Both the position numbers and the translations under genes were made by a program. Positions 3,026-57,088 of a stretch of 64,000 bases of DNA are shown here, piece after piece. Under the pieces are notes generated by a model. That model was not told where the DNA came from. It worked only from the letters and a program-made list of their open reading frames with translations, and did no database searches. The DNA is from Dehalococcoidia bacterium. GTDB lineage: Bacteria; Chloroflexota; Dehalococcoidia; Bin125. Where the stretch lies: NCBI GenBank assembly GCA_022825855.1, contig JAJDWB010000009.1, positions 62,001 through 126,000 on the forward strand, written 5' to 3'. Every line of letters starts with the position of its first letter. Positions within the stretch are counted from its first letter, which is position 1.

Positions 3026-5307
3026 GATTCGGTGGTGGGATCGGGGATTGACCTGATCAGGTGATCGAGGAGGTTGGCGAAATCGCTGAGGGCGGGGTTG
3101 GGCGGCAACCGGTCGATGAGTGCGGCGAGCGAGGAATGCAGGGCGCGCAGTTCGGGTGCGACAGCCTGGCCTTGCTCTCCCCGGACGTCGTGAGCGCTGT
3201 CGATCGCGCCGTAGCGATCGGCGGTCAGGCCGACGATGGCGGCAAGCTGATCCAGGGCGGCCCTGGCCCGGTCTTCGGTTGCGTCCGGTCCCGGCGCGAT
3301 TGACCGATCGGCGGACCTTGACTCGCCCGTGTCCGGCGTCAGCCAGCGCAGGGCAACGGACCCGAACGACGCATTCTCAGCCGCAAGCGACTGCCGGCCT
3401 GCTTCGGTGAGCACGAGTTCGTAGAGCGCCGTGACGGCGACGCCGGATGGGATCTCGGCGAACTCGGTGCGGTCCTCGACAAACGACTCGGCCGAGGTCA
3501 CGCGGTTCTCGTAGCCGATCAGTCGCCACTGCGCGACCCGCTGTTCATCCCAGACCACCTGGGTTCGGGCCTGGTCCGCGAACGGCGTGGACAGGCGGAG
3601 CCAGTGCTCGCGGGCGAAGACCTGGCGCGCCTGCTCGGGCGTGTCGAGGTAGCGGTACCAGCCGTTGCCGTGCTGCGACAACTGCTCGAGCAGGAAGTCG
3701 TTGTAGTTCTGAATGCCGACGCCGACGGTGATCAGACGGATCGGGTTCTCGGCGTTCTGATCGCCGGTCAGGGCCAGAATCTTGAACGGATCGGTGGCGT
3801 CGACGTTGGCGACGCCGTCGGACATCAGGATCACATAGTTGTAGGCGTCGGGGCGCTGCTGGCGCATCTCGGCTACCAGCTGCACGCCGAGATCGAGGCC
3901 GCGCTGCACGTTGGTCGAGTCATGCGGGGCCAGATTGCCGATTGAGCCATGCACGACGGGCGATCCGGGAATGGCGGCATTGACCGTGTACTGGTGCAGC
4001 ACGTCGGTCGTGAAATGGACAACGGCGATCCGGTCGATGCACCGCAGTCCGGCGTGGATGGTCTCGGCGGCGGCCCTGGCGATATCAACCCGCCCGCCCC
4101 AGCTCATCGAGCCCGAGGCGTCGAGCACGAGGGCCACGTTGAGCGGTCGATCGTCCATGATCGTGGGCGCCTGGAATCCAATCCGGGCGATGTGCAGTTC
4201 GTCGTCGATCGGATGCTCCATGAGGGCCGTGGAGATGGCGAACTGATCGTCCGAATCTGGCGGCTCGTAGCCGTAATCGAACGAGTTGATCCACTCCTCG
4301 GCGCGGGCGGAATCCGGTTCGACGAGGAAGCCGTTGGCGGCCCAGTTGAGGGCGAGTTGGTAGGAGGTCAGATCGACGTCGAGGCTGAAGGTTGAGGTGT
4401 CGTTCTCGCTGGTGAGGGTGAATCCGGTGCGGGGATTGTCGGCGAAGGTGGTGTCGGAGGGGACGGTAGTGGGCGCTTCGTCGGACTCATCCATCATGGA
4501 GTCGTCGTCGGACTCTTCCATCATGGAGTCGTCGCCGCCCATGCCGTTGTAGTCGCCTTCTTCATTCATCTGGCTCGCCTCAACGAAGAGGGAGAACTGC
4601 AGCTCGGCAAATCCGCCGCCGGATGACCTAGCGCGGTAGACCATCCGATAGGAGCCGATCTCGGTCGGGGACCCGGAGAGGATGCGGGTCTCGGGATCGA
4701 AGGTCAGGCCGGGAACCTCAGGCTCAAGGCTGTAACTCAGGTCCCACCACTCAACCTGTGCATCCGGGAGGGTCATCTGAACTGGATGGTTCGGTTCCAG
4801 GATCACCTGCCAGATTCGGTCGAGGAACCGGGGCGTCGCATCAGGCCTGGGAATTGAGAGCGTGATCGGCGAGCTCACCACCCAGTTCCGGTTTGCGAGG
4901 GGCCGAATGAATCGAGCGCGTGGCAGCAGGTCTTCACCGCCAAGCGTTCGGAAGCCGACTTCGTACCATCCGTTGGCAAGCTGGCGGGTAATGAGGCTTC
5001 CCAGCGTGACGCCCTTGAGGACGACCGGAGACGATTCGAGCCATACATCGGCGGCGCAGTGGACGGGCAAGGGGCCGGCGTCGGGCAGGACATCCGGCGA
5101 TCCCTCCACGCGAAGGCCGATTCGCGCTCCTTCGTCTGCGGTTCGCTGAAGCACGATTCGACCGTTGAGGTCGATGGTCTCCGGTCCGCCTTGGGCTCTG
5201 GCCGCTTCGAAGCCCATCGTCGCTGCCGCGGCGACAGTGAGCAGCAGCAATAATCCAACAATTGCGCGCATAAGGCGCGGTCGCAGGCACGGTGAGGCGG
5301 ACGGCAT
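3022..5307 (-). CDS. Secreted von Willebrand factor A domain protein (YfbK-like)
   Basis: A 761-residue exported protein. The N-terminus has a basic stretch and then a hydrophobic segment ending in AAATMGFEAARAQ, a likely Sec signal. About residues 165-245 resemble a putative Ig/cadherin-like domain (PGLTFDPETRILSGSPTEIG). A Met/Asp/Glu-rich linker follows at about 245-285. Then comes the YfbK N-terminal segment (DTSTFSLDVDLTSY), a VWA domain with an intact metal site (DASGSMS, about 393-399), and a DUF3520-type C-terminus. VWA domains bind protein ligands through Mg2+; the partner is unknown. An AGAGGGA ribosome site supports ATG 5307. It is paralogous to 6147..8045, from which it is separated by an oppositely oriented small gene. 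Confidence 0.85.
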   Translation of the reverse strand: MPSASPCLRPRLMRAIVGLLLLLTVAAAATMGFEAARAQGGPETIDLNGRIVLQRTADEGARIGLRVEGSPDVLPDAGPLPVHCAADVWLESSPVVLKGVTLGSLITRQLANGWYEVGFRTLGGEDLLPRARFIRPLANRNWVVSSPITLSIPRPDATPRFLDRIWQVILEPNHPVQMTLPDAQVEWWDLSYSLEPEVPGLTFDPETRILSGSPTEIGSYRMVYRARSSGGGFAELQFSLFVEASQMNEEGDYNGMGGDDSMMEESDDDSMMDESDEAPTTVPSDTTFADNPRTGFTLTSENDTSTFSLDVDLTSYQLALNWAANGFLVEPDSARAEEWINSFDYGYEPPDSDDQFAISTALMEHPIDDELHIARIGFQAPTIMDDRPLNVALVLDASGSMSWGGRVDIARAAAETIHAGLRCIDRIAVVHFTTDVLHQYTVNAAIPGSPVVHGSIGNLAPHDSTNVQRGLDLGVQLVAEMRQQRPDAYNYVILMSDGVANVDATDPFKILALTGDQNAENPIRLITVGVGIQNYNDFLLEQLSQHGNGWYRYLDTPEQARQVFAREHWLRLSTPFADQARTQVVWDEQRVAQWRLIGYENRVTSAESFVEDRTEFAEIPSGVAVTALYELVLTEAGRQSLAAENASFGSVALRWLTPDTGESRSADRSIAPGPDATEDRARAALDQLAAIVGLTADRYGAIDSAHDVRGEQGQAVAPELRALHSSLAALIDRLPPNPALSDFANLLDHLIRSIPDPTTES

Positions 5308-5427
5308 CGAGTCCCTCTGTCTATCCGCCCGCAGGTCAAGGGTACAACCAGGTCACGCGGGAGGCGTGCTTGCCGGGGCGATTTGACCGGGAGTGATCAA
5401 TGTGGGGAAGGAACGCCCCTCCACCGC

Positions 5428-5502
5428 CAACCACGACACAACATCAGAACTCTCGTTCACATACCATCAATCACAAACGCATGTTCACCGAAAGGACCAC
5501 CC
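5428..5502 (+). promoter_or_regulatory. Conserved 5' leader of the acidic-tail gene family, copy 1
   Basis: The stretch begins with CAACCACGACACAAC at 5428-5442. It continues into CATACCATCAATCACAAACG and CATGTTCACCGAAAGGAC just before the ATG, with AAAGGA as ribosome site. The same blocks occur in the same order upstream of 40209..40565, and the first block also precedes 27563..28249. Conservation outside the coding region points to a shared promoter, operator or leader. I cannot tell which. Confidence 0.6.
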
Positions 5503-5853
5503 ATGACCGACGCACAGGCCACCCGACAACAGATCCACGACCGCTACTGGGCCATCGCCAACAACCCCGAGGAACGCGGCTACGTCCAGGTCCGCGCCCT
5601 CGATTCCCTCTGCCGCCTGCTCGACCTCTTCCCACGCGGTCAGCACCCGGCTGACGCCCAGCAGCCGCCGGAACCGATGGATCCCGCCCTCATGATGGCA
5701 TCCCTGAGCGATGAACAGATCGACGCCCTGATCGCCCGCGAAGAAGTCAGAGCCAAGGCCAGGGCCGAAGCCAGGGCCAAGGCCGAAGCCGAAGCCGAGC
5801 AGGACGAGGAAGACGACGAAGCCTCCAACCCCGACGAGGACGAACCTCCCTAA
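5503..5853 (+). CDS. Small protein with acidic C-terminal tail, duplicated family, copy 1
   Basis: The 116-residue protein starts at ATG 5503 behind GAAAGGACCACCC. Residues 1-50 form a conserved helical head (RQQIHDRYWAIANNPEERGY, LDSLCRLLDLFPRG). A variable middle with SDEQIDALIAREE follows, then an Ala/Lys/Glu coiled segment and a tail DEEDDEASNPDEDEPP. It is nearly identical at both ends to the protein at 40209..40565, and the middle differs. The head resembles small DNA-binding or terminase-small-subunit-like proteins in size only; I cannot name a family. It is followed by a palindrome block that is also duplicated. Confidence 0.7.
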   Translation: MTDAQATRQQIHDRYWAIANNPEERGYVQVRALDSLCRLLDLFPRGQHPADAQQPPEPMDPALMMASLSDEQIDALIAREEVRAKARAEARAKAEAEAEQDEEDDEASNPDEDEPP

Positions 5854-6146
5854 TACCCGTCCCCCTCACCGGGGCCAAGAGCCATCCGGTCCCCTCTCCC
5901 CGAGGGAGAGGGTTAGGGTGAGAGCCTGCCCCCGCGAAGGCGGGGGGGCCTCCCACAAGTTTTTTTCAGCGCTTCGGAAGCGCCCCAAACTAGTCGCCCC
6001 CGCGAAGGCGGGGGCCCCGCGCAGCCTGCCTCTGGCTTGAACAGGGGGCGGGGGCCCCGCGCAGCCTGCCCTTGGCTTGAACAGGGGGCGGGGGCCCCGC
6101 GCAGCCTGCCCCCGGCTCACGCCAGGGGCAGGGCGGCAGAAGTTGG
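5854..6146. repeat. Palindrome cluster with a 40-bp tandem repeat
   Basis: No gene is seen in this gap. It holds a CCCTCTCCCCGAGGGAGAGGG hairpin, two CCCCCGCGAAGGCGGGGG hairpins and a T7 run at about 5960. From about 6010 a 40-base unit (GGGGGCCCCGCGCAGCCTGC... TTGAACAGGGGGC) is repeated twice, with a third partial copy. About 200 bases of this block match the sequence after 40565. The hairpin and T run could end transcription of the small gene. Confidence 0.8.
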
Positions 6147-8045
6147 TCAGCCGGCGTAGCCGGGGTCTTCGGATTCGTGATGGTCGGCGACGGCGCCCAT
6201 GGCCTGGAGCAGTTGGGCGAAGTCGCGGCCCGCCTGGGTGTCAAGGATGCTGGTGGGCAGCGACTCGAACCAGGAGGCGAGGTCGTCGAGCTCGTCGGCG
6301 GCCGTAGTGAAGGTGTTCTGGCCGAGTCCGTCTTGGCCGAACCAGCTGTAGCGGTCGGCGGCGAGCGCGACGACCGTGCCGAGGTCGAGCAGAGCGTCGT
6401 CGCCCCACTCGTGGACGCGGCCGCCGATCTCGGCCTGCTGGCGGTTGGACTGGTCGGACCTGGGCGTGAGCCAGCGCAGCTCGACCTCGCCCAGTTCGAG
6501 CAGGTCGCGGCGCTGCGCGTCGTCGGTCAGTTCGACCTCGAAGAACATCGTCGTGGCCGAACCCATGGGGATCTCGGCGAACTCCTGGCGGTCCTGCTCG
6601 AAGTTGCGGTCGGCGGTCACGCGGTTCTCGTAGCCGACCAGCCGCCAGCCGGCGACGGCCTGCTCGTCCCAGCGGACCTGGGCGCGGGCCTGGTCGGCGA
6701 AGGGGATCGAGAGGGCGAGCCAGTTCTCGCGGCTGAACGTCGAGCGGGCCTGGGCGACGTCCTGCAGGTAGCGGTACCAGCCGTTGCCGTGCTGGGCGAG
6801 CTGTTCGAGCAGGACGTCGTTGTAGTTGGCGATGCCGACCCCGACGGTGATCAGGCGCAGGGGATTGCGCTCGTCGCGGTCCTCGGCGGAGCGGAGGATG
6901 GCGAAGGGGTCGGTGGCGTCGACATTGGCGACGCCGTCGGACATCAGGATCACGTAGTTGTGCGCGTCGGGGCGCTGGCGGCGGATGTCGTCGGCGAGTT
7001 CGACCCCGAGGTTGAGTCCGGCCTGGACGTTGGTGGAGTTGAGCGGCGTGAGGCGGTCGATGACGCGACGGATGCCGCGGTCGCCGGGTCGCTCGTGCTC
7101 GGCGTGGTCGACGATCCCGTCGGAGAAGAGGACGACGGCGATGCGGTCGTCGTCGCCGAGTCCGCGGCGGATCGACTCGGCCGCGGCACGGGCGATCTCG
7201 ACGCGGTCGCCTTCGCGCATCGAGCCGGAGGAGTCGAGCACGAGGGTGACGTTGAGCGGGGTGTTGTCAACGAACTCGGGCGCCTGGGTGGCGATCCGAA
7301 CGAGGTGGAGGTCATCGTTGAGCGGATGGCGGACGATGTCGGTGGTGACGGCGAAGCTGTCGTCGACGTCGGGCCTGTCGTAGCGGTAGTTGAAGGCGTT
7401 GATCCACTCCTCGGCGCGGACCGAGGCAGGCTCGATCGCGTAGCCGTTCTGGACCCAGTTGAGGGCCAGGAAGTAGGAGGTGCGGTCGACGTCCAGCGAG
7501 AAGGTGGAGGTGTCGTCCTGGTCGGTGTCGCGCCAGCCGAGGGAGGGGTAGTCCTCGAAGTTGGTCGCCCCGGGCCGGGGACGCAGGGTGACCTGCTGCT
7601 GCTCGTCCTCCGGGTAGGGTCCGCCGGAGTTGGGGTAGGCGTCGCTACTGTCCTCGTCCGCTTCCTCCATCGCCTCCTGCTGTTGGGCCTGCTGCTCGGC
7701 CTGCTCTGCCGATGCCTGCTCCTGGCGGTCCTGCTGGCTGGCTGCGCTTGTGGCGACCGAGTAGGACTCCTGCTCTTCGTCCTGTTCCACCTGTTCGGCC
7801 TGCTGCTGCATGGCCTGCTGTTGCTCTTGCTGGTACTCGACCTGTTGGGATCGCTCGGCCTGCTGTTGCTGCGCCTGGGCGACGACCGTCGGCTGCTCGG
7901 CTTGCGGCTCGGCCTGTTGCGCGGTCTGCTGGGCGTCCCGATCGTCGCTGCAGGCCGCGATCAGGACGGCGGCGGCGAGAATCGGCAGTGCTATCGCTGC
8001 GACGCTGTGTTTGAGGAATCTGCGGGTTCGCTGGATCGCTGTCAT
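6147..8045 (-). CDS. VWA-domain lipoprotein with Gln-rich linker (YfbK-like)
   Basis: A 632-residue protein. The N-terminus has a signal and the lipobox LIAAC near residue 32, so it is probably lipid-anchored outside the membrane. About residues 38-150 are a Gln/Glu/Ala-rich low-complexity linker. The YfbK N-terminal segment (DTSTFSLDVDRTSY) follows at about 178, then a VWA domain with metal site DSSGSM near 268, and a DUF3520-like end. A strong AGGAGG precedes ATG 8045. From the VWA core onward it is clearly homologous to 3022..5307, while the linkers differ entirely (Gln-rich here, Met/Asp-rich there). A cell-surface adhesion or assembly role is inferred only from the domain. Confidence 0.88.
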   Translation of the reverse strand: MTAIQRTRRFLKHSVAAIALPILAAAVLIAACSDDRDAQQTAQQAEPQAEQPTVVAQAQQQQAERSQQVEYQQEQQQAMQQQAEQVEQDEEQESYSVATSAASQQDRQEQASAEQAEQQAQQQEAMEEADEDSSDAYPNSGGPYPEDEQQQVTLRPRPGATNFEDYPSLGWRDTDQDDTSTFSLDVDRTSYFLALNWVQNGYAIEPASVRAEEWINAFNYRYDRPDVDDSFAVTTDIVRHPLNDDLHLVRIATQAPEFVDNTPLNVTLVLDSSGSMREGDRVEIARAAAESIRRGLGDDDRIAVVLFSDGIVDHAEHERPGDRGIRRVIDRLTPLNSTNVQAGLNLGVELADDIRRQRPDAHNYVILMSDGVANVDATDPFAILRSAEDRDERNPLRLITVGVGIANYNDVLLEQLAQHGNGWYRYLQDVAQARSTFSRENWLALSIPFADQARAQVRWDEQAVAGWRLVGYENRVTADRNFEQDRQEFAEIPMGSATTMFFEVELTDDAQRRDLLELGEVELRWLTPRSDQSNRQQAEIGGRVHEWGDDALLDLGTVVALAADRYSWFGQDGLGQNTFTTAADELDDLASWFESLPTSILDTQAGRDFAQLLQAMGAVADHHESEDPGYAG

Positions 8046-10060: not shown

Positions 10061-10116
10061 TGCACCGACAATATCGCGCCAGCGTCGTGGGCACAATCAA
10101 GCAGGCGTTGGGCGGG

Positions 10117-10150
10117 CCTTCACCCTAACCCTCTCCCTCAGGGAGAGGGA
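10117..10150. repeat. Extragenic palindrome, CCCTCTCCC family
   Basis: CTTCACCCTAACCCTCTCCC followed by TCAGGGAGAGGGA forms a hairpin. It lies between the alpha/beta hydrolase and the 3' end of the next minus-strand gene. Confidence 0.85.
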
Positions 10151-10157
10151 ACCGGAA

Positions 10158-11906
10158 CTAGTCGGTGGGTTCGGAGACGAGGAGTTCGGCTTCGACGTCG
10201 TCGGCCAGGTTCTCGATCACCGGGGTCTCGCCCAGGGCGCCGTCCTCGACCTGCATGTCGAAAGCGTCGGCGAAGTAGCGGTAGGACTGGTACTGGTCGC
10301 CGTACTTCATGTGGCCGGCGGTGTGGTGGGCGGCAGCCATGAGCAGCGTGTTGCGCGACTCGGACGAGGTGCGGCGGTAGTCCTCCAGCATGCAGAGGCC
10401 GATCTCCTGGTTGTGCGGGTCGTTGCCCTGTTTGGCGATCCCATTGGCCAGGGTCTCGACCAGGGGACCGTCGTCGTAGCCGAGGCTGAGGTAGTTCTCG
10501 ACCCAGAAGACGGACTGCTCCATGTCGAGCGAGAGCATGGCGTCGTTGAGTTCGCTGAGCGCCTGACCCTGGGAGACCTGCTTGGCCTCGCCGCCCTTGT
10601 CGTAGCCGGCGAAGTAGGTGGCTGCGCCGCGGGTCTTGTTGCCCTTGGAGTTGAGCGCCCAGTGCGCGCACTGGTTGATGAAGTTGGCGGCGACGAAGAG
10701 CAGCTTGGTCTTGTGCGGGTGGTCGAACTGCTCGTAGAACCAGCCCAGGGTGTTGCAGTACTCGTAGCCGTGCTGGGGCATGGAGAAGTTGGCGGGCAGG
10801 CCGCATTCGAGCACCACGCGGGCGGCGGCGACCTGGATGGCGTCGAGGATCGACTTGGGCGAGCGGCCGGCCTTGAGCAGGTCGGAAAGCAGGGCGATGT
10901 AGGACTCCTGCGGCTCGTTGATGACCGTGCGGATGATCATCTCCGACTCGGGGCCCGAGAGCGGAATCTGGTTGGTGAAGAGTTCCTGGTCGCGGGTCGA
11001 CTTGGTGGTCGCGGAGAGCGACGAGCTGGGGGCTTCCTCTTCGAGGTGGTACATCATGATCTGGCAGGCGGACTCGTAGAGCGAGTACCAGCGGGGGCCG
11101 ACGGCGATGTCGGGCACGCCGGCGTAGAGGACGTGGTGTGCGTTCTCCCAGCCGATGGCGCGTCCGAGCTCGACGGTGCTGCGGGCGCGGAAGGACTTGT
11201 GCCCGGTGGTGTAGGAGCGGTTCCAGTACATCCGGTCCTGGACGTCGATCAGTCCGGCGAACACGAGCTGGGCGAGGATCTCTTCGCGGCGCTCGGGGAA
11301 CTGGTCCCAGAGGCCAAGGAAGAGCGAGTACTCGTCGTCAACGTGTCCGTACTGGACCATCGTGAGCCAGGTGTTGAGGCCCTCTTCGAGCGATTCGTCC
11401 CAGCGGGTCGGCTGCTGGTCGTCCCAGTGCGCCGCTGGCGGCGCGGGACCGTCGGGGTAGTTCTCGGGGTCGTAGGTGCGGCGCGAGTAGTGGCCGGGCA
11501 TCCTGCCCTTGAGCTGGTTCCAGATGTCGAGGCCGGTGGGCACGTACCAGGCGGTCTGGCTGAGCGGCAGGTGGCGGAGTTCTTCGGAGACGTAGTTCTG
11601 CAGGTTGAGCGTGGCGCGGGAGGAGAGCAGGCAGTGGTCGTTGTTGACGAAGCGGACGATGCCCTCGTCGATGCGCTGGTGATAAGGGACGTGCGTGTAG
11701 GGCGCGTGGGCGCGGATCGTCTCGGAGAGAATCTCGGTCGTGGGCCGTCCCTCTTTGATCAGGTCGAAGGCCTGGTGCAGGGCGGAGGTGTTGTCGCGCT
11801 CGACGACGGTCTCGCGGTAACGGTCGTACGCTGCGGCGGTTCTGCGGTCCATGTAGGCGGGAGAGGACCCGCTGTCGCCGGTACCGGAAGTCTTGTGCAG
11901 GCTCAT
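10158..11906 (-). CDS. Uncharacterised 582-residue helical protein
   Basis: I cannot name this family with confidence. It has no signal peptide or membrane helix and is predicted mostly helical. It is rich in His and aromatic residues in clusters that could bind a metal or cofactor: HAPYTHVPYHQR near 86, GWENAHHVLYAG near 262, FSMPQHGYEYCN near 392, NFINQCAHWAL near 421 and AAAHHTAGHMKYGDQY near 525. Repeated His-bearing helices suggest an alpha-helical oxygenase or oxidase scaffold. A questin-oxidase-like (DUF4243) or ferritin-like di-iron protein is a possibility only. Codon use and length leave no doubt that it is a real gene. Confidence 0.7.
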   Translation of the reverse strand: MSLHKTSGTGDSGSSPAYMDRRTAAAYDRYRETVVERDNTSALHQAFDLIKEGRPTTEILSETIRAHAPYTHVPYHQRIDEGIVRFVNNDHCLLSSRATLNLQNYVSEELRHLPLSQTAWYVPTGLDIWNQLKGRMPGHYSRRTYDPENYPDGPAPPAAHWDDQQPTRWDESLEEGLNTWLTMVQYGHVDDEYSLFLGLWDQFPERREEILAQLVFAGLIDVQDRMYWNRSYTTGHKSFRARSTVELGRAIGWENAHHVLYAGVPDIAVGPRWYSLYESACQIMMYHLEEEAPSSSLSATTKSTRDQELFTNQIPLSGPESEMIIRTVINEPQESYIALLSDLLKAGRSPKSILDAIQVAAARVVLECGLPANFSMPQHGYEYCNTLGWFYEQFDHPHKTKLLFVAANFINQCAHWALNSKGNKTRGAATYFAGYDKGGEAKQVSQGQALSELNDAMLSLDMEQSVFWVENYLSLGYDDGPLVETLANGIAKQGNDPHNQEIGLCMLEDYRRTSSESRNTLLMAAAHHTAGHMKYGDQYQSYRYFADAFDMQVEDGALGETPVIENLADDVEAELLVSEPTD

Positions 11907-12529: not shown

Positions 12530-13930
12530 ATGTCTGACGATCAACGAGCGCTGGTCGCTCACCTGATGCGTCGCGCGGGAGCGGGCGCGACACCTGCCGA
12601 ACTGGACGCGCTGGCCGAGCGGCCCTACGCCGAGATCGTCGAAGACCTGATTACGCCGCCGCCGACGGCGGACGAGGACGACGACCTGATCTTCCGCTAC
12701 TTCCCCTCTCTGGCCAACTCGGACACGCCGTGGCCCTGGAGCGCGCGCTGGATCTACTGGATGGTGAACTCGGAGTCGCCGCTGCGCGAGAAGATGGCGC
12801 TGTTCTGGCACCACGTGTTCGCGACGGCCTGGTTCAAGTCGGAGCACGGGCCCTCGATGCCGGTGCATATCCAGATGTTCCGCGATCACGGACTGGACAA
12901 CATGCGGGTGCTGCTGGGCGAGCTCTCGCGCGACCCGGCCATGATTTTCTGGCTGGACAACGTAGAGTCGGTCAAGGGCGCGCCGAACGAGAACTACGGT
13001 CGCGAGTTGCTGGAACTGTTCTCGATGGGCGTCGGCAACTACACCGAGGACGACATCAAGGCGGCCGCCTACAGCTTTACCGGTTGGACGTTTGAGCAGC
13101 CGATTCCGCTGTATCCGCACGGCGGTTACCCGGCGCACTTCGTCTACCGCGATGACCTGCACGACGACTCGGAGAAGACGTTCCTGGGCCAGACCGGCCA
13201 GTGGAACGGCGACGACATCATCGACATCATCGTGCAGCAGCCGGCGACGGGGCAATTCATCGGGCGGCACCTGTACAACTTCTTCGTCAAGGACGAGCCG
13301 GGCGTATCTGCCTGGTCGGTGACCGATCCGGGCAACCCGGCGGCGGTGGACGAGCTGGCGTCGGCGTTTGCCGAGTCAAACGGCGACCTGCGCGCGGTGA
13401 TGCGGGTGCTGTTCAACGCCGATTGGTTCAAGCAGGAGCGCTACGAGCGGGTCAAGTGCCCGGCCGAGTGGGTGGCGGGCGCATACAAACTCTCGGGCAA
13501 GCTGGGCATGCCGCAGCCGGAGATGTGGAACCTGCACCTGACGATGGGCGCGATGGGTCAGACGCTGATGGACCCGCCCTCGGTCGAGGGCTGGCACACC
13601 GGCAAGGAATGGATCGACGGCGGCACGCTGATGGAGCGGATCAACTTCGCCTCCAAGCTGGTCTCGGATCCGGCCACGCCGGTCGTGCAGGACCTGGTTA
13701 GCCGGCTGCAGGAGCAGGGCGCGAGCAGTCCCGAGGAACTGGTAGACGCGACGCTCGACTACGCCGGTCCGCTGGTGGTCTCCGAGAACACGCGCGAGGC
13801 GCTGCTTGAGGCGGCGTCGGCGGGCGGCGACCTCTCGTTTGAGAGCGACGAAGGCCGCGAGTCGGCAGGTCAGCGGGCGGCCCAGGCGCTGCGCCTGGTG
13901 ATCGCCTCGCCCGAGTACCAGTTCGCATAG
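12530..13930 (+). CDS. DUF1800 family protein
   Basis: The start ATG 12530 follows GGAGAGG and gives 466 residues; the frame is open further upstream but without a better site. Family features are MRRAGAGATPAELDAL at the N-terminus, FWHHVFAT near 105, NYGRELLELFSMG near 160, YTEDDIKAAAYSFTGW, DDSEKTFLGQTG and the C-terminal PPSVEGWHTGKEWI. DUF1800 proteins are nearly always encoded with DUF1501 partners, as here. Their biochemical role is unknown. Most homologues have a Tat or Sec signal; none is present here. Confidence 0.88.
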   Translation: MSDDQRALVAHLMRRAGAGATPAELDALAERPYAEIVEDLITPPPTADEDDDLIFRYFPSLANSDTPWPWSARWIYWMVNSESPLREKMALFWHHVFATAWFKSEHGPSMPVHIQMFRDHGLDNMRVLLGELSRDPAMIFWLDNVESVKGAPNENYGRELLELFSMGVGNYTEDDIKAAAYSFTGWTFEQPIPLYPHGGYPAHFVYRDDLHDDSEKTFLGQTGQWNGDDIIDIIVQQPATGQFIGRHLYNFFVKDEPGVSAWSVTDPGNPAAVDELASAFAESNGDLRAVMRVLFNADWFKQERYERVKCPAEWVAGAYKLSGKLGMPQPEMWNLHLTMGAMGQTLMDPPSVEGWHTGKEWIDGGTLMERINFASKLVSDPATPVVQDLVSRLQEQGASSPEELVDATLDYAGPLVVSENTREALLEAASAGGDLSFESDEGRESAGQRAAQALRLVIASPEYQFA

Positions 13931-13934
13931 GGAT

Positions 13935-13968
13935 CCCTCGCCCAAGCCCTCTCCCCGAGGGAGAGGGA
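13935..13968. repeat. Extragenic palindrome inside the DUF1800-DUF1501 operon
   Basis: CCCTCGCCCAAGCCCTCTCC then CCGAGGGAGAGGGA forms a hairpin in the 69-base gap between the two co-oriented genes. It could tune the ratio of upstream to downstream message. Confidence 0.8.
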
Positions 13969-13999
13969 ACCAAGGCTAGAAACGGAACGGAACGAGTCA

Positions 14000-27407: not shown

Positions 27408-27513
27408 TCCCCTCTCCCCGAGGGAGAGGGTCAGGGTGAGGGCGCTCTGGCGCTGGAGGGGTCTCCCAGCCGCCGGAACCCTCACCCCAGCCCTCTCCCA
27501 AAGGGAGAGGGAG
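27408..27513. repeat. Palindrome pair, left flank of the HTH gene
   Basis: CCCTCTCCCCGAGGGAGAGGG is followed by a spacer with CTCTGGCGCTGGAGG and CCAGCCGCCGGAACCCTCAC, then CCCTCTCCCAAAGGGAGAGG. The whole arrangement is repeated in the same orientation at 28351-28449, so it brackets the gene at 27563-28249 as a direct repeat of about 100 bases. Confidence 0.85.
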
Positions 27514-27562
27514 CCGGTACCCGAGCAGGTCTCCGAATGAATCGGGGACGGGGAGGGGAGGG

Positions 27563-28350: not shown

Positions 28351-28449
28351 GAAGAGGGAGAGGGTTAGGGTGAGGGCCCTCTGGCGCTCGAGGAGTCTCC
28401 CGGCCGCCGGAACCCTCACCCCAGCCCTCTCCCAAAGGGAGAGGGAGTC
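28351..28449. repeat. Palindrome pair, right flank of the HTH gene
   Basis: AGAGGGAGAGGGTTAGGG, then CTCTGGCGCTCGAGGAGTC and CCGCCGGAACCCTCACCCC, then CCCTCTCCCAAAGGGAGAGG. It matches 27408-27513 in order and orientation. Confidence 0.85.
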
Positions 28450-28472
28450 GGAAGGGGCGAGCGGGCAACGCA

Positions 28473-40123: not shown

Positions 40124-40208
40124 CAACCACGACACAACAGGCCACAACAACAGCACATCTGTACATATACCATCAATCACAAACGCATGTTCACTGAAAG
40201 GACAAGCC
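40124..40208 (+). promoter_or_regulatory. Conserved 5' leader of the acidic-tail gene family, copy 2
   Basis: CAACCACGACACAAC (40124-40138) is followed by GTACATATACCATC and CAATCACAAACGCATGTTCA, then CTGAAAGGACAAGCC before the ATG. Block order and spacing match 5428-5502, with a 10-base insertion of AACA-rich sequence. ACATATAC could be a -10 region. Confidence 0.6.
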
Positions 40209-40565
40209 ATGACCGCAGAACAGGCCACCCGCCAACAAATCCACGACCGCTACTGGGCCATCGCCAACAACCCCGAGGAACGCGGCTACGTCCAGGTCCG
40301 CGCACTCGACTCCCTCTGCCGCATGCTCGACCTCTTCCCCCGCGGCCAACAGCCCAACGGCGTTCCGGAGCCGCCGCTGCCCGACTTTGACGACCCCGAA
40401 GTCCTCGTCTGCCTGATGAGCGACGAGCAGATCGACCGCCTGATGGCCATGGAACGCGCCGAAGCCAAACGCAGAGTCGAAGCCGAAGCAAACGCCGAAG
40501 CGGAAGCCGAGCAGGACGAAGAAGACGACGAATCCTCCAACCCCGACGAGGACGAACCTCCCTAA
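40209..40565 (+). CDS. Small protein with acidic C-terminal tail, duplicated family, copy 2
   Basis: A 118-residue paralogue of 5503..5853. The head (about 1-50) and the tail (EQDEEDDESSNPDEDEPP) are nearly identical, while the middle (PNGVPEPPLPDFDDPEVLVC) has no counterpart in copy 1. A conserved SDEQIDRLMAMER helix precedes the Ala/Glu segment. Such mosaic conservation suggests either recent gene conversion of the ends or diversifying change in the middle. It is flanked by the copied leader and palindrome block. No family name is assigned. Confidence 0.7.
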   Translation: MTAEQATRQQIHDRYWAIANNPEERGYVQVRALDSLCRMLDLFPRGQQPNGVPEPPLPDFDDPEVLVCLMSDEQIDRLMAMERAEAKRRVEAEANAEAEAEQDEEDDESSNPDEDEPP

Positions 40566-40830
40566 TACCCGCTTCACCCCTCAGGGGGCAAGAGCCTTCC
40601 GGTCCCCTCTCCCCGAGGGAGAGGGTTAGGGTGAGAGCCTGCCCCCGCGAAGGCGGGGGGCCCTCCCACAGTTTTTTTCAGCGCTTAGGGACCGTTCCCA
40701 GCAACCCCTACCCAGTCGCCCCCGCGCAGGCGGGGGCTCCGCGCAGCCTGCCCCTGGCTTGAACGGGGGGCGGGGGCAGCGCGGCGAGACAAGCGCTCGC
40801 TGGCCCCGCCTGCGCGGGGCCGACGTCTAT
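40566..40830. repeat. Palindrome cluster, copy of the block at 5854-6146
   Basis: No gene is seen here. The block contains CCCTCTCCCCGAGGGAGAGGG, CCCCCGCGAAGGCGGGGG, a T7 run, CAGCGCTT, and one copy of the 40-base unit that is tandem at 6010-6125. The order of parts equals the first locus, so the duplicated cassette is about 650 bases long including the gene. Confidence 0.8.
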
Positions 40831-49157: not shown

Positions 49158-49216
49158 GGGTTTGACAGCGCTACAGTGAGGCCCTCACCCTAACCCTCTC
49201 CCTCGGGGAGAGGGGA
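49129..49216. repeat. Two extragenic palindromes at facing gene ends
   Basis: CCTCTCCTACTGGGAGAGGG at about 49130-49148 lies inside the 3' end of the plus gene. CCCTCTCCCTCGGGGAGAGG at about 49193-49214 lies inside the 3' end of metF on the minus strand. Both convergent proteins thus end in repeat-encoded residues. Confidence 0.85.
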
Positions 49217-50128
49217 TGGAGGCCAGCCGAGGGCTGTTGCGACCTCGGAGGCGGCGCGGGCGAAGTTCATGGTGTAGATGTGCAGGCCGGGGGCGCCCAG
49301 CTCGAGCAGCTCGCGGCCGAGCGCGACGGCGACCTCGACACCGATCTCGCGGCGCTCCTGCTGGCTTGAGGCTTGCTCCAGGCGATCGCGGATCTCGGCC
49401 GGGAACTCGGTGCCGTTGAGCGCCGACATACGCTCGATTCCGGCGACGTTGGTGGGCGGCATGATTCCAGCGATCACCGGCGTCTGCACGCCGCGCGCGT
49501 CGAGCTGGCTGACGAACTGCTCGTAGTACTCGGCGCGGTAGAAGAACTGCGTGATGGCGAAGTTGGCCTGGGCGAGCTTCTTCGACTGATGAGCGAGGTC
49601 GGCCTCGACCGACGCGGCCATCGGGTGACCCTCGGGATGGGCGGCGACGGCAATGTCCCAATCCGTGCGCTTGCGGATGAAGCGGGCGAGTTCGGCGGCG
49701 GTGTCGAAGGCTGGGGATCCCCCCTCGCCGGAGCCTGCCCCTGCGGAGGCAGGGGGCAGCTCCCCCCCTCCGGGGGGGAGCGATGAAGGGGGGAGCGGAG
49801 GGTCGCCGCGGAGGGCGAGGATGTTGGCGATGCCGTCGGACTGGTAGTCGCGGATGATGGCGGCGACTTCATCGCGGGTATGGGCGACGCAGGTCAGGTG
49901 GGGCATTGCCTCGACGCCGACGTGGTCGCGGATGGTGCGGACCCAGTCGCGAGTCGGGCCTCGGGTGGCGCCGCCGGCGCCGTAGGTGACCGACATGAAG
50001 CCGGGGCGGTGGCGGGCGAGGGTCTCGAGGGTGGTTCTCAGTCGCTCGGCGCCGGGTTCGTCGCGGGGGGCGGAGAATTCGAAGGACAGCGTTGGGCCCG
50101 CATCCAGCAGTTGCGAGATGCGGGCCAT
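49190..50128 (-). CDS. metF: Methylenetetrahydrofolate reductase MetF with repeat insertion
   Basis: A 312-residue MetF TIM-barrel flavoprotein that reduces 5,10-methylene-THF to 5-methyl-THF for methionine synthesis. Landmarks are LSFEFSAPRDEPGAERL with the catalytic Glu, FMSVTYGAGGATRG, HLTCVAHTRDE, NILALRGDPP, and ANFAITQFFYRAEYY. Between GDPP and FDTAAEL (about residues 112-140) lie about 29 Pro/Gly/Ser-rich residues encoded by a palindromic repeat (see 49709-49795). The frame is preserved. The last residues, SPLPEGEG, also come from a palindrome. The loop is next to the folate/FAD site, so effects on activity are possible. Confidence 0.92.
   Translation of the reverse strand: MARISQLLDAGPTLSFEFSAPRDEPGAERLRTTLETLARHRPGFMSVTYGAGGATRGPTRDWVRTIRDHVGVEAMPHLTCVAHTRDEVAAIIRDYQSDGIANILALRGDPPLPPSSLPPGGGELPPASAGAGSGEGGSPAFDTAAELARFIRKRTDWDIAVAAHPEGHPMAASVEADLAHQSKKLAQANFAITQFFYRAEYYEQFVSQLDARGVQTPVIAGIMPPTNVAGIERMSALNGTEFPAEIRDRLEQASSQQERREIGVEVAVALGRELLELGAPGLHIYTMNFARAASEVATALGWPPSPLPEGEG
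49709..49795. repeat. Palindromic element inserted in frame within metF
   Basis: CCTGCCCCTGCGGAGGCAGG and CTCCCCCCCTCCGGGGGGGAG are both palindromes of the kinds seen in gaps elsewhere (GCCTGCCCCCGCGAAGGC...). The surrounding frame reads through as GGGELPPASAGAGSGEGGSP. Confidence 0.85.
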
Positions 50129-50150: not shown

Positions 50151-50213
50151 CCCTCACTCCCCGCTCACGCGGGGGCCCTCACCCTGGCCCTCTCCCGGAG
50201 GGAGAGGGAGTTG
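50151..50213. repeat. Extragenic palindromes upstream of metF
   Basis: CCCTCACTCCCCGCTCACGC GGGG and CCCTCTCCCGGAGGGAGAGGG are two hairpins in the 102-base gap between metF and the Fe-S carrier gene. Confidence 0.8.
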
Positions 50214-50230
50214 GAGGGAGGAGGGTGGAA

Positions 50231-55841: not shown

Positions 55842-55854
55842 AGGCGTGCCCGCC

Positions 55855-55908
55855 CTCTGCCTGCGGCATCTCCCCCCGCCGGTCGGGGGCGAGATGAGCG
55901 GGGTGGGA
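55855..55908. repeat. Extragenic palindromic element after the restriction genes
   Basis: CTCCCCCCGCCGGTCGGGGG GAG-type pairing, with GCCTGCGGC before it and a GGGGTGGG end. It lies in the 83-base gap before the cysteine desulfurase and marks the return to high-GC core sequence. Confidence 0.6.
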
Positions 55909-55924: not shown

Positions 55925-57088
55925 ATGGAACGGGCGTATTTTGACCATGCGGCGACGACTCCGCTGGACCGGCGGGTGCTGGCGGCGATGATTCCGGTGC
56001 TGGAGGGGGGCTGGGGCAATCCGTCGGGGATTTACCGCGAAGCGCAGTTGGCGCGGGGGTTGCTGGACGAGGCGCGGGACAGGATTGCCGGGGTGCTGGG
56101 CTGCTCGCCGTCGGAGGTGGTGCTGACCTCGGGCGGGACGGAGTCGGACAACCTGGCGATCCGCGGGGCGGCGCTGGCGCGGCGCGAGTCGGGTCGTCAC
56201 CTGATCACGCAGGCGACGGAGCATCACGCGGTGCTGCACACGATGGAGCAGCTCGAGCGCGAGGGTTTCGAGTTGACGGTGCTGGGCGTGGACGCTGAGG
56301 GCTTCGTCGACCAGGATACGGTGGCGTCGGCGGTGCGCGCGGACACGACGGTGGTCAGCATCATGGCGGCCAACAACGAGATCGGGACGGTCCAGCCGAT
56401 TGCGGAGATCGCGCGAGCGGTGAAGGAGCGCAATCGGCGGACGATCGTGCACACCGACGCGGTCCAGGCGGCGGGCGCGGTCGATATCCGTCCCGACGCG
56501 CTGGGCGTCGACCTGATGTCGGTGACGGCGCACAAGATTTACGGTCCGAAGGGCGCGGGCGCGCTCTATGTGCGGCGTCGGACGCCGCTGGAGGCGTTGC
56601 AGCTCGGCGGCGGACAGGAGGAGGAGCGCCGGGCGGGCACGGAGTCGGTGGCGCAGGCGGTGGGTCTGGCGAAGGCGCTGGAGCTGGCGGAGTCGGAGCG
56701 GGGGCAGCGTACGCGCCATGCGTCGGAGTTGCGCAATCGGTTGTGGCGCGAGCTGAACGAGCGCGTGCATCCGATCCGTCTGAACGGTCCGGCGGACTGG
56801 TCGCGGCGGCTGGCCAACAATCTCAACGTGAGTTTCTCCGGGGTTGAGGGCGAGAGCATCCTGCTGCAGCTCGACCTGGAGGGATTCGCGGCGTCGTCGG
56901 GATCGGCCTGCTCCACGGGCAGCACCGAGCCGAGTCACGTGCTCTCGGCGATCGGGCTCGATTCGGACACGGCGCACAGCACGGTGCGTCTGAGCCTGGG
57001 GCAGTCCAATACGGAGGATCAGATCCAGGGGATCGCGCGGACGATCGAGGAGATCACGGCGCGCCTGCGGGCGTTGTCGCCGGTCTAG
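55925..57088 (+). CDS. Cysteine desulfurase (IscS/NifS family)
   Basis: A 387-residue PLP enzyme that frees sulfur from cysteine for Fe-S cluster, thiolation and cofactor pathways. Landmarks are YFDHAATTPLD at the start, TSGGTESDNLAIRG, TEHHAVLH, the PLP Lys in SVTAHKIYGPKG, and the active Cys in SSGSACSTGSTEPSHVL. The Cys loop is of the IscS/NifS (group I) length. No IscU or mnmA gene is next to it in the window. Codon use is typical of the host core. Confidence 0.93.
   Translation: MERAYFDHAATTPLDRRVLAAMIPVLEGGWGNPSGIYREAQLARGLLDEARDRIAGVLGCSPSEVVLTSGGTESDNLAIRGAALARRESGRHLITQATEHHAVLHTMEQLEREGFELTVLGVDAEGFVDQDTVASAVRADTTVVSIMAANNEIGTVQPIAEIARAVKERNRRTIVHTDAVQAAGAVDIRPDALGVDLMSVTAHKIYGPKGAGALYVRRRTPLEALQLGGGQEEERRAGTESVAQAVGLAKALELAESERGQRTRHASELRNRLWRELNERVHPIRLNGPADWSRRLANNLNVSFSGVEGESILLQLDLEGFAASSGSACSTGSTEPSHVLSAIGLDSDTAHSTVRLSLGQSNTEDQIQGIARTIEEITARLRALSPV

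Follow-up and report, generated by a model that had tools for sequence, protein, structure and literature searches.

The window analysed here, a stretch of 64,000 nucleotides of Dehalococcoidia DNA, carries a metF gene that is expanded in frame by a copy of a dispersed palindromic repeat. This metF is the sole MetF match in its genome at E<=0.001 in a genome-wide search. The closest named relatives are Dehalococcoidia/Chloroflexota metagenome-assembled genomes (MAGs), and the host genus is known from such genomes alone. The features at the locus, in window positions, are as follows.

49190..50128, minus strand: metF, 5,10-methylenetetrahydrofolate reductase, 312 aa, the insertion host (Pfam PF02219, MTHFR, E=5.7e-71; MTHFR relatives in the PDB)
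49709..49801, minus strand: expanded 93-nt segment bounded by the GD and FD codons (orthologue comparison)
49759..49781, minus strand: first hairpin of the metF repeat, GCTCCCCCCC-GGA-GGGGGGGAGC, with a 10-bp stem (folding and repeat comparison)
49736..49758, minus strand: second hairpin of the insert, TGCCCCCTGC-CTCC-GCAGGGGCA, standing where relatives have GCC-GAA-GGC
49719..49726, minus strand: repeat tail GAGGGGGG (comparison with L002, L003 and L012; element boundary profile)
49182..49214, plus strand: CCCTCACCC..CCCTCTCCC..GGGAGAGGG repeat over the metF stop codon, supplying the C-terminal SPLPEGEG (repeat comparison)
55852..55889, minus strand: the other window copy of the metF-type repeat, just upstream of a plus-strand ORF at 55925 (pattern search, none expected by chance)

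Orthologues of metF are present in 13 other genomes of the genus, and their comparison identifies segment 49709-49801 as a palindromic insertion, directly after the GD of LRGD, that keeps the reading frame. From GD to FD the window genome has 93 nt; G011 and G001 have 72 nt each, and G014 has 48 nt. The stretch is 33 nt long in nine other members of the genus and 36 nt long in L010 and L013, two relatives from outside it. Relative to these 11 empty-site orthologues (nine within the genus), the window gene has gained a net ~60 nt, or ~20 residues, and its loop is 7 residues longer than that of the sister G011. The first-pass annotation had described a palindromic insert of about 29 residues; the insert and its preserved frame are real, although the gain over empty relatives is nearer 20. 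A similar-length loop of unrelated sequence in other MetF homologues had been named there as an alternative, and across the genus, the class and other phyla the loop is mostly much shorter.

G011, G001 and G004 carry a shorter copy of the element at the identical site and in the identical frame, reading approximately GCTCCCCCCC-nnn-GGGGGGGAGCTGCCG(A/C)AGGCTGAGGGGGG, and the degenerate loop of G014 is likely derived from the same element. In the metF tree the filled G001 is sister to the empty G005, and thus shared ancestry with loss, transfer and a second insertion are not separable for this gene. The segment folds modestly better than its shuffles (RNA z=-2.3, DNA z=-2.5), since the shuffles are also GC-rich and so fold too; the repeat family is stronger evidence for the insert than this folding excess.

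The window copy is composite, joining the repeat hairpin to another palindrome in place of the second arm. This second hairpin resembles a different window family, CCCCCGC-nnnn-GCGGGGGC (two mismatches in 15 specified bases), and the exact second arm occurs a single time in the genome. The proposal that palindromes of the metF type fill gaps elsewhere in the window needed correction: the copy at 55852-55889 is the only other one found, and CCCTCACCC..CCCTCTCCC and CCCCCGC-nnnn-GCGGGGGC, two different families, account for most gap-filling palindromes. The latter is found above chance (15 matches versus 1.66 expected), including at 5928, 5996, 25670, 40641, 40718 and 40802. The extended form of the former, CCCTCACCC..CCCTCTCCC..GGGAGAGGG, flanks metF on either side (49174-49224, 50168-50218) and is also present at 2454-2504, 10109-10159, 13927-13977, 27471-27521 and 28405-28455. 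This CCCTCTCCC family is likewise the source of the MetF C-terminus (..GWPPSPLPEGEG before the stop), where most relatives have GWPAD or similar. Additionally, the window holds longer duplications that are 74-84% identical (3496-3969 with 6615-7088; 5421-5859 with 40127-40571) and are possibly paralogous genes. An Rfam scan of the window matched no family.

The element in metF belongs to a genus-wide family of ~50 bp palindromic repeats with the main form TCTCCCCCCGC-nnn-GCGGGGGGAGATGCCGAAGGCAGAGGGGGG, situated mostly between genes. Over 114 copies the conserved ~50 bp consist of a hairpin, TCTCCCCCCGC-nnn-GCGGGGGGAGA, followed by a small hairpin, TGCC-GAA-GGCA, and the GAGGGGGG tail. The second arm varies, with both of its sides changing together (GTCGC-GAA-GCGAC, GTCAC-GAA-GTGAC, GCCGC-GTA-GCGGC). 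A 24-base core, GGGGAGATGCCG(A/C)AGGCAGAGGGG, is common to dozens of intergenic copies and to inserts in different genes; allowing up to three mismatches, we counted 29 cores in G000, 97 in G011 and 78 in G001, and none with the reversed control. A stricter element pattern matched 14 of the 15 genus genomes without any control match. Beyond the genus, the element is almost absent from the rest of the phylum: with one mismatch allowed, the main subtype was found in 5 of 400 genomes surveyed across the phylum (three genus members, and two others with one match each; control 0). Most copies are open to translation, as 84 of 117 are stop-free in all six frames versus 29% of mononucleotide-shuffled copies.

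Two viral contigs contain the exact 24-base core (L309:2788-2811, L310:5163-5186) beside a different, AT-richer first hairpin, and no open frame through the core was found in either. At L122 (G000:C17 near 237001), a repeat copy immediately precedes the start of a glutamate 5-kinase-like protein, which was named by eye.

We gathered candidate coding sites in 130 small loci and screened them for open frames; the claims made here rest on orthologue alignments, and the first coding-frame classifier overlooked copCD as well as one murE site and gave some intergenic sites the wrong label. In-frame copies occur in error-prone dnaE (identified by NCBIfam), murE (by TIGR01085), a CopC/CopD/cytochrome protein (copCD) and a double CoA-transferase. 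Together with metF, the dnaE and murE copies make three in-frame cases in the window's own genome. For dnaE, murE and copCD we found both filled and empty orthologues, and every measured gap length is divisible by three. Empty dnaE sites have a gap of 24 nt and filled ones 63-273 nt (63 in G000; 147, or three units, in G011; 273 in G003). The corresponding values are 15 nt versus 72-111 nt for murE, and 42-45 nt versus 75-147 nt for copCD. G007 (39 nt) and G008 (75 nt) have an extended dnaE loop as well, but the extra sequence is not recognisably the repeat, so the length of this loop varies for other reasons too. Open-frame screens found no coding-like frame through most of the other surveyed copies.

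The inserts are read in different frames, giving peptides such as GEMPQAEGG and GGDAEGRGG or SPPAPRGEMPQAEGG and SPRSAGGDAEGRGG. For MTHFR, MurE, error-prone DnaE, CopC/CopD and CoA_transf_3, a Pfam or NCBIfam domain extends across the insert or borders it. The filled state is patchy on a tree built from these genes: G011 has the copCD insert and its sister G000 lacks it, and G009 has the murE insert and its sister G013 lacks it. Sister species also differ at murE in having a short or a long second arm, and changes adjacent to the element preserve the frame there. These findings bear out the proposal that the element can act as a protein-coding insertion in the manner of the Rickettsia palindromic elements (RPE), as does a check for the translated repeat, which turned up in frame in other conserved genes, three with clear empty-site orthologues and one at a gene junction. 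G011 supplies two further candidates: the ORF of a phage terminase large subunit (L209:829-2337), with two in-frame repeat-like stretches (GLPSPPAPAGGSSG..FPSPPASAGGDAEGRGG), and a luciferase-like monooxygenase (L093:1474-2625) with a repeat-derived C-terminal end (SRSPSQGELPKAEGVSEP).

In some species the dnaE and copCD inserts are built of tandem units of ~42-45 nt, which, with the GC-richness of the inserts, is what would be expected if local GC-rich loops had grown by slippage or tandem expansion with no dispersed element, their likeness to intergenic copies being convergence of C-runs and G-runs. However, slippage is unable to put one sequence into unrelated genes, and the sharing of the 24-base core between intergenic copies and different genes, against zero in the reversed control, makes this origin very improbable, although slippage may contribute to the tandem arrays. 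Misjoining of an intergenic repeat into genes during MAG assembly is another conceivable source, as contigs break at or near repeats (metF of G004, dnaE of G012). We regard such an artefact as extremely improbable, because separately assembled species have identical gene/insert junctions, in frame and with species-specific substitutions.

AlphaFold2 predicts a confident MTHFR barrel for the window MetF (mean pLDDT 85.8), with a fold that matches solved MetF structures in the PDB, and gives residues 112-135 a pLDDT below 50. In the alignment with E. coli MetF, Asp109 falls at position 120, and the insert comes immediately after it; the loop thus adjoins the active site, in agreement with its earlier placement near the folate/FAD site. 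The PDB includes an Asp120Ala mutant of the E. coli enzyme. Asp120 has a role in folate binding. The insert is most likely a disordered, tolerated loop adjoining the active site. Its proximity to this residue, and its presence in several species (G000, G011, G004, G001), might also suggest a loop selected for changing the activity or regulation of MetF (and of MurE and DnaE). We consider selection of this kind unlikely, as sequence, length and arms differ by species (72 versus 93 nt in metF; short and long arms in murE), eleven metF orthologues are without the insert, and the very low prediction confidence is that of disordered loops.

The double CoA-transferase is associated with a gene fusion. 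In G007, G008 and G013 the type III CoA-transferase pair is encoded by two separate genes, which differ in frame and overlap stop to start at TGATG. A single CoA-transferase ORF is present in ten other genomes, and in each a palindrome-like linker of 153-216 nt, always a multiple of three, takes the place of the first gene's final residues; the locus in G005 is cut by a contig end. The linker is clearly palindrome-derived in most of the ten and degenerate in G002, where its sequence likely also originates from the element. On the simplest reading, the stop codon of the first gene was lost to the element, which would then have preceded and caused the fusion.

Several known palindromic repeats invite comparison. 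RPE (Ogata et al. 2000) are described, in the summaries of PMC2229807 and PMC3767692, as dispersed palindromes of ~100-150 bp that lie between genes and in frame within conserved genes, found in Rickettsia with related elements in Wolbachia. Our element is similarly intergenic and in frame within conserved genes, with insertion sites common to orthologues and open frames through its copies. Unlike RPE, it is ~50 bp long and GC-rich, has a Chloroflexota host, stacks in tandem and has a variable inner arm. Thus, it resembles RPE in behaviour, but membership is not supported, as the described length and host of RPE set it apart. The enterobacterial repeats RU-1, RU-2 and RU-3 (ERIC, YPAL) are also small, have open frames and are fused to host proteins (PMC2759123, PMC2229807); by description these 103-168 bp, MITE-like repeats, some with target duplications, differ from our element in size and host group. 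Regarding MITE features, the element is palindromic; filled and empty sites have diverged so far in their flanks that no target-site duplication could be read.

GTAG/CGTC REP palindromes occur within genes, including replication and repair genes, singly or clustered, and often encode 20 to 30 residues (PMC3733652). Because the same report documents palindromes within genes outside Rickettsia, and GTAG repeats from Chloroflexi as well, the phenomenon is already known in general terms. Our element shares with these REPs its short palindromes, single or clustered inside genes, and differs in having no GTAG or CGTC end tag, in its host genus being essentially without RAYT, and in its arrangement, with a G-rich tail after the two hairpins. 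Its size, hairpin form, mostly intergenic position and occasional inverted pairs (11 of 114 copies) are REP-like, and intragenic REPs are published, as would suit a plain REP/REPIN family moved by a RAYT transposase. We nevertheless find this distinctly unlikely: around the 114 copies no GTAG end is fixed, and CGTC, present in 12 of 228 flank stretches, is not fixed either. A RAYT/Y1 transposase was rejected as the mover, as PF01797 gave one match (E=9.4e-4) in the 15 genus genomes and was unmatched in the other 14, with MAGs 88-98% complete and the control genomes positive. A literature search found no published report of the element in this group, with most subscription journals outside its coverage.

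Taken together, we consider it probable that a dispersed, non-autonomous ~50 bp palindromic DNA element has spread through this genus and that its in-frame copies are read through and kept. Because most copies are stop-free in six frames, a copy landing in a loop, a linker or a protein end could be read through and retained, provided that the net length is a multiple of three, and copies that break genes would be purged by selection. We infer that the element moved as DNA and that selection lies behind the frame bias. On this reading, one such copy gave MetF a disordered loop beside the active site, now found in several species, which in the window genome was enlarged when the second arm was swapped for another palindrome. 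Tandem copies accumulate at tolerant sites, and a copy replacing a gene end seems to have joined the two overlapping CoA-transferase genes. All data are MAG sequences; proteins with inserts are presumably made and working, and any benefit from them would be conjectural. A more specific version, to which we give somewhat less than even weight, is a Chloroflexota-specific coding palindrome with some non-RAYT mover and arm exchange between copies, which repeatedly builds loops and linkers and created a two-domain enzyme by fusion.

For annotators, loops such as GGELPKAEGG and GGDAEGRGG in these genomes are repeat-derived. Filled and empty versions in many species constitute a natural series for studying insertion-tolerant positions, the origin of linkers and the way in which repeats may bring about gene fusion. 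The best-known examples of protein-coding selfish palindromes come from Rickettsia, a lineage of obligate intracellular bacteria; here an apparently unrelated, GC-rich element behaves in this way in Chloroflexota.
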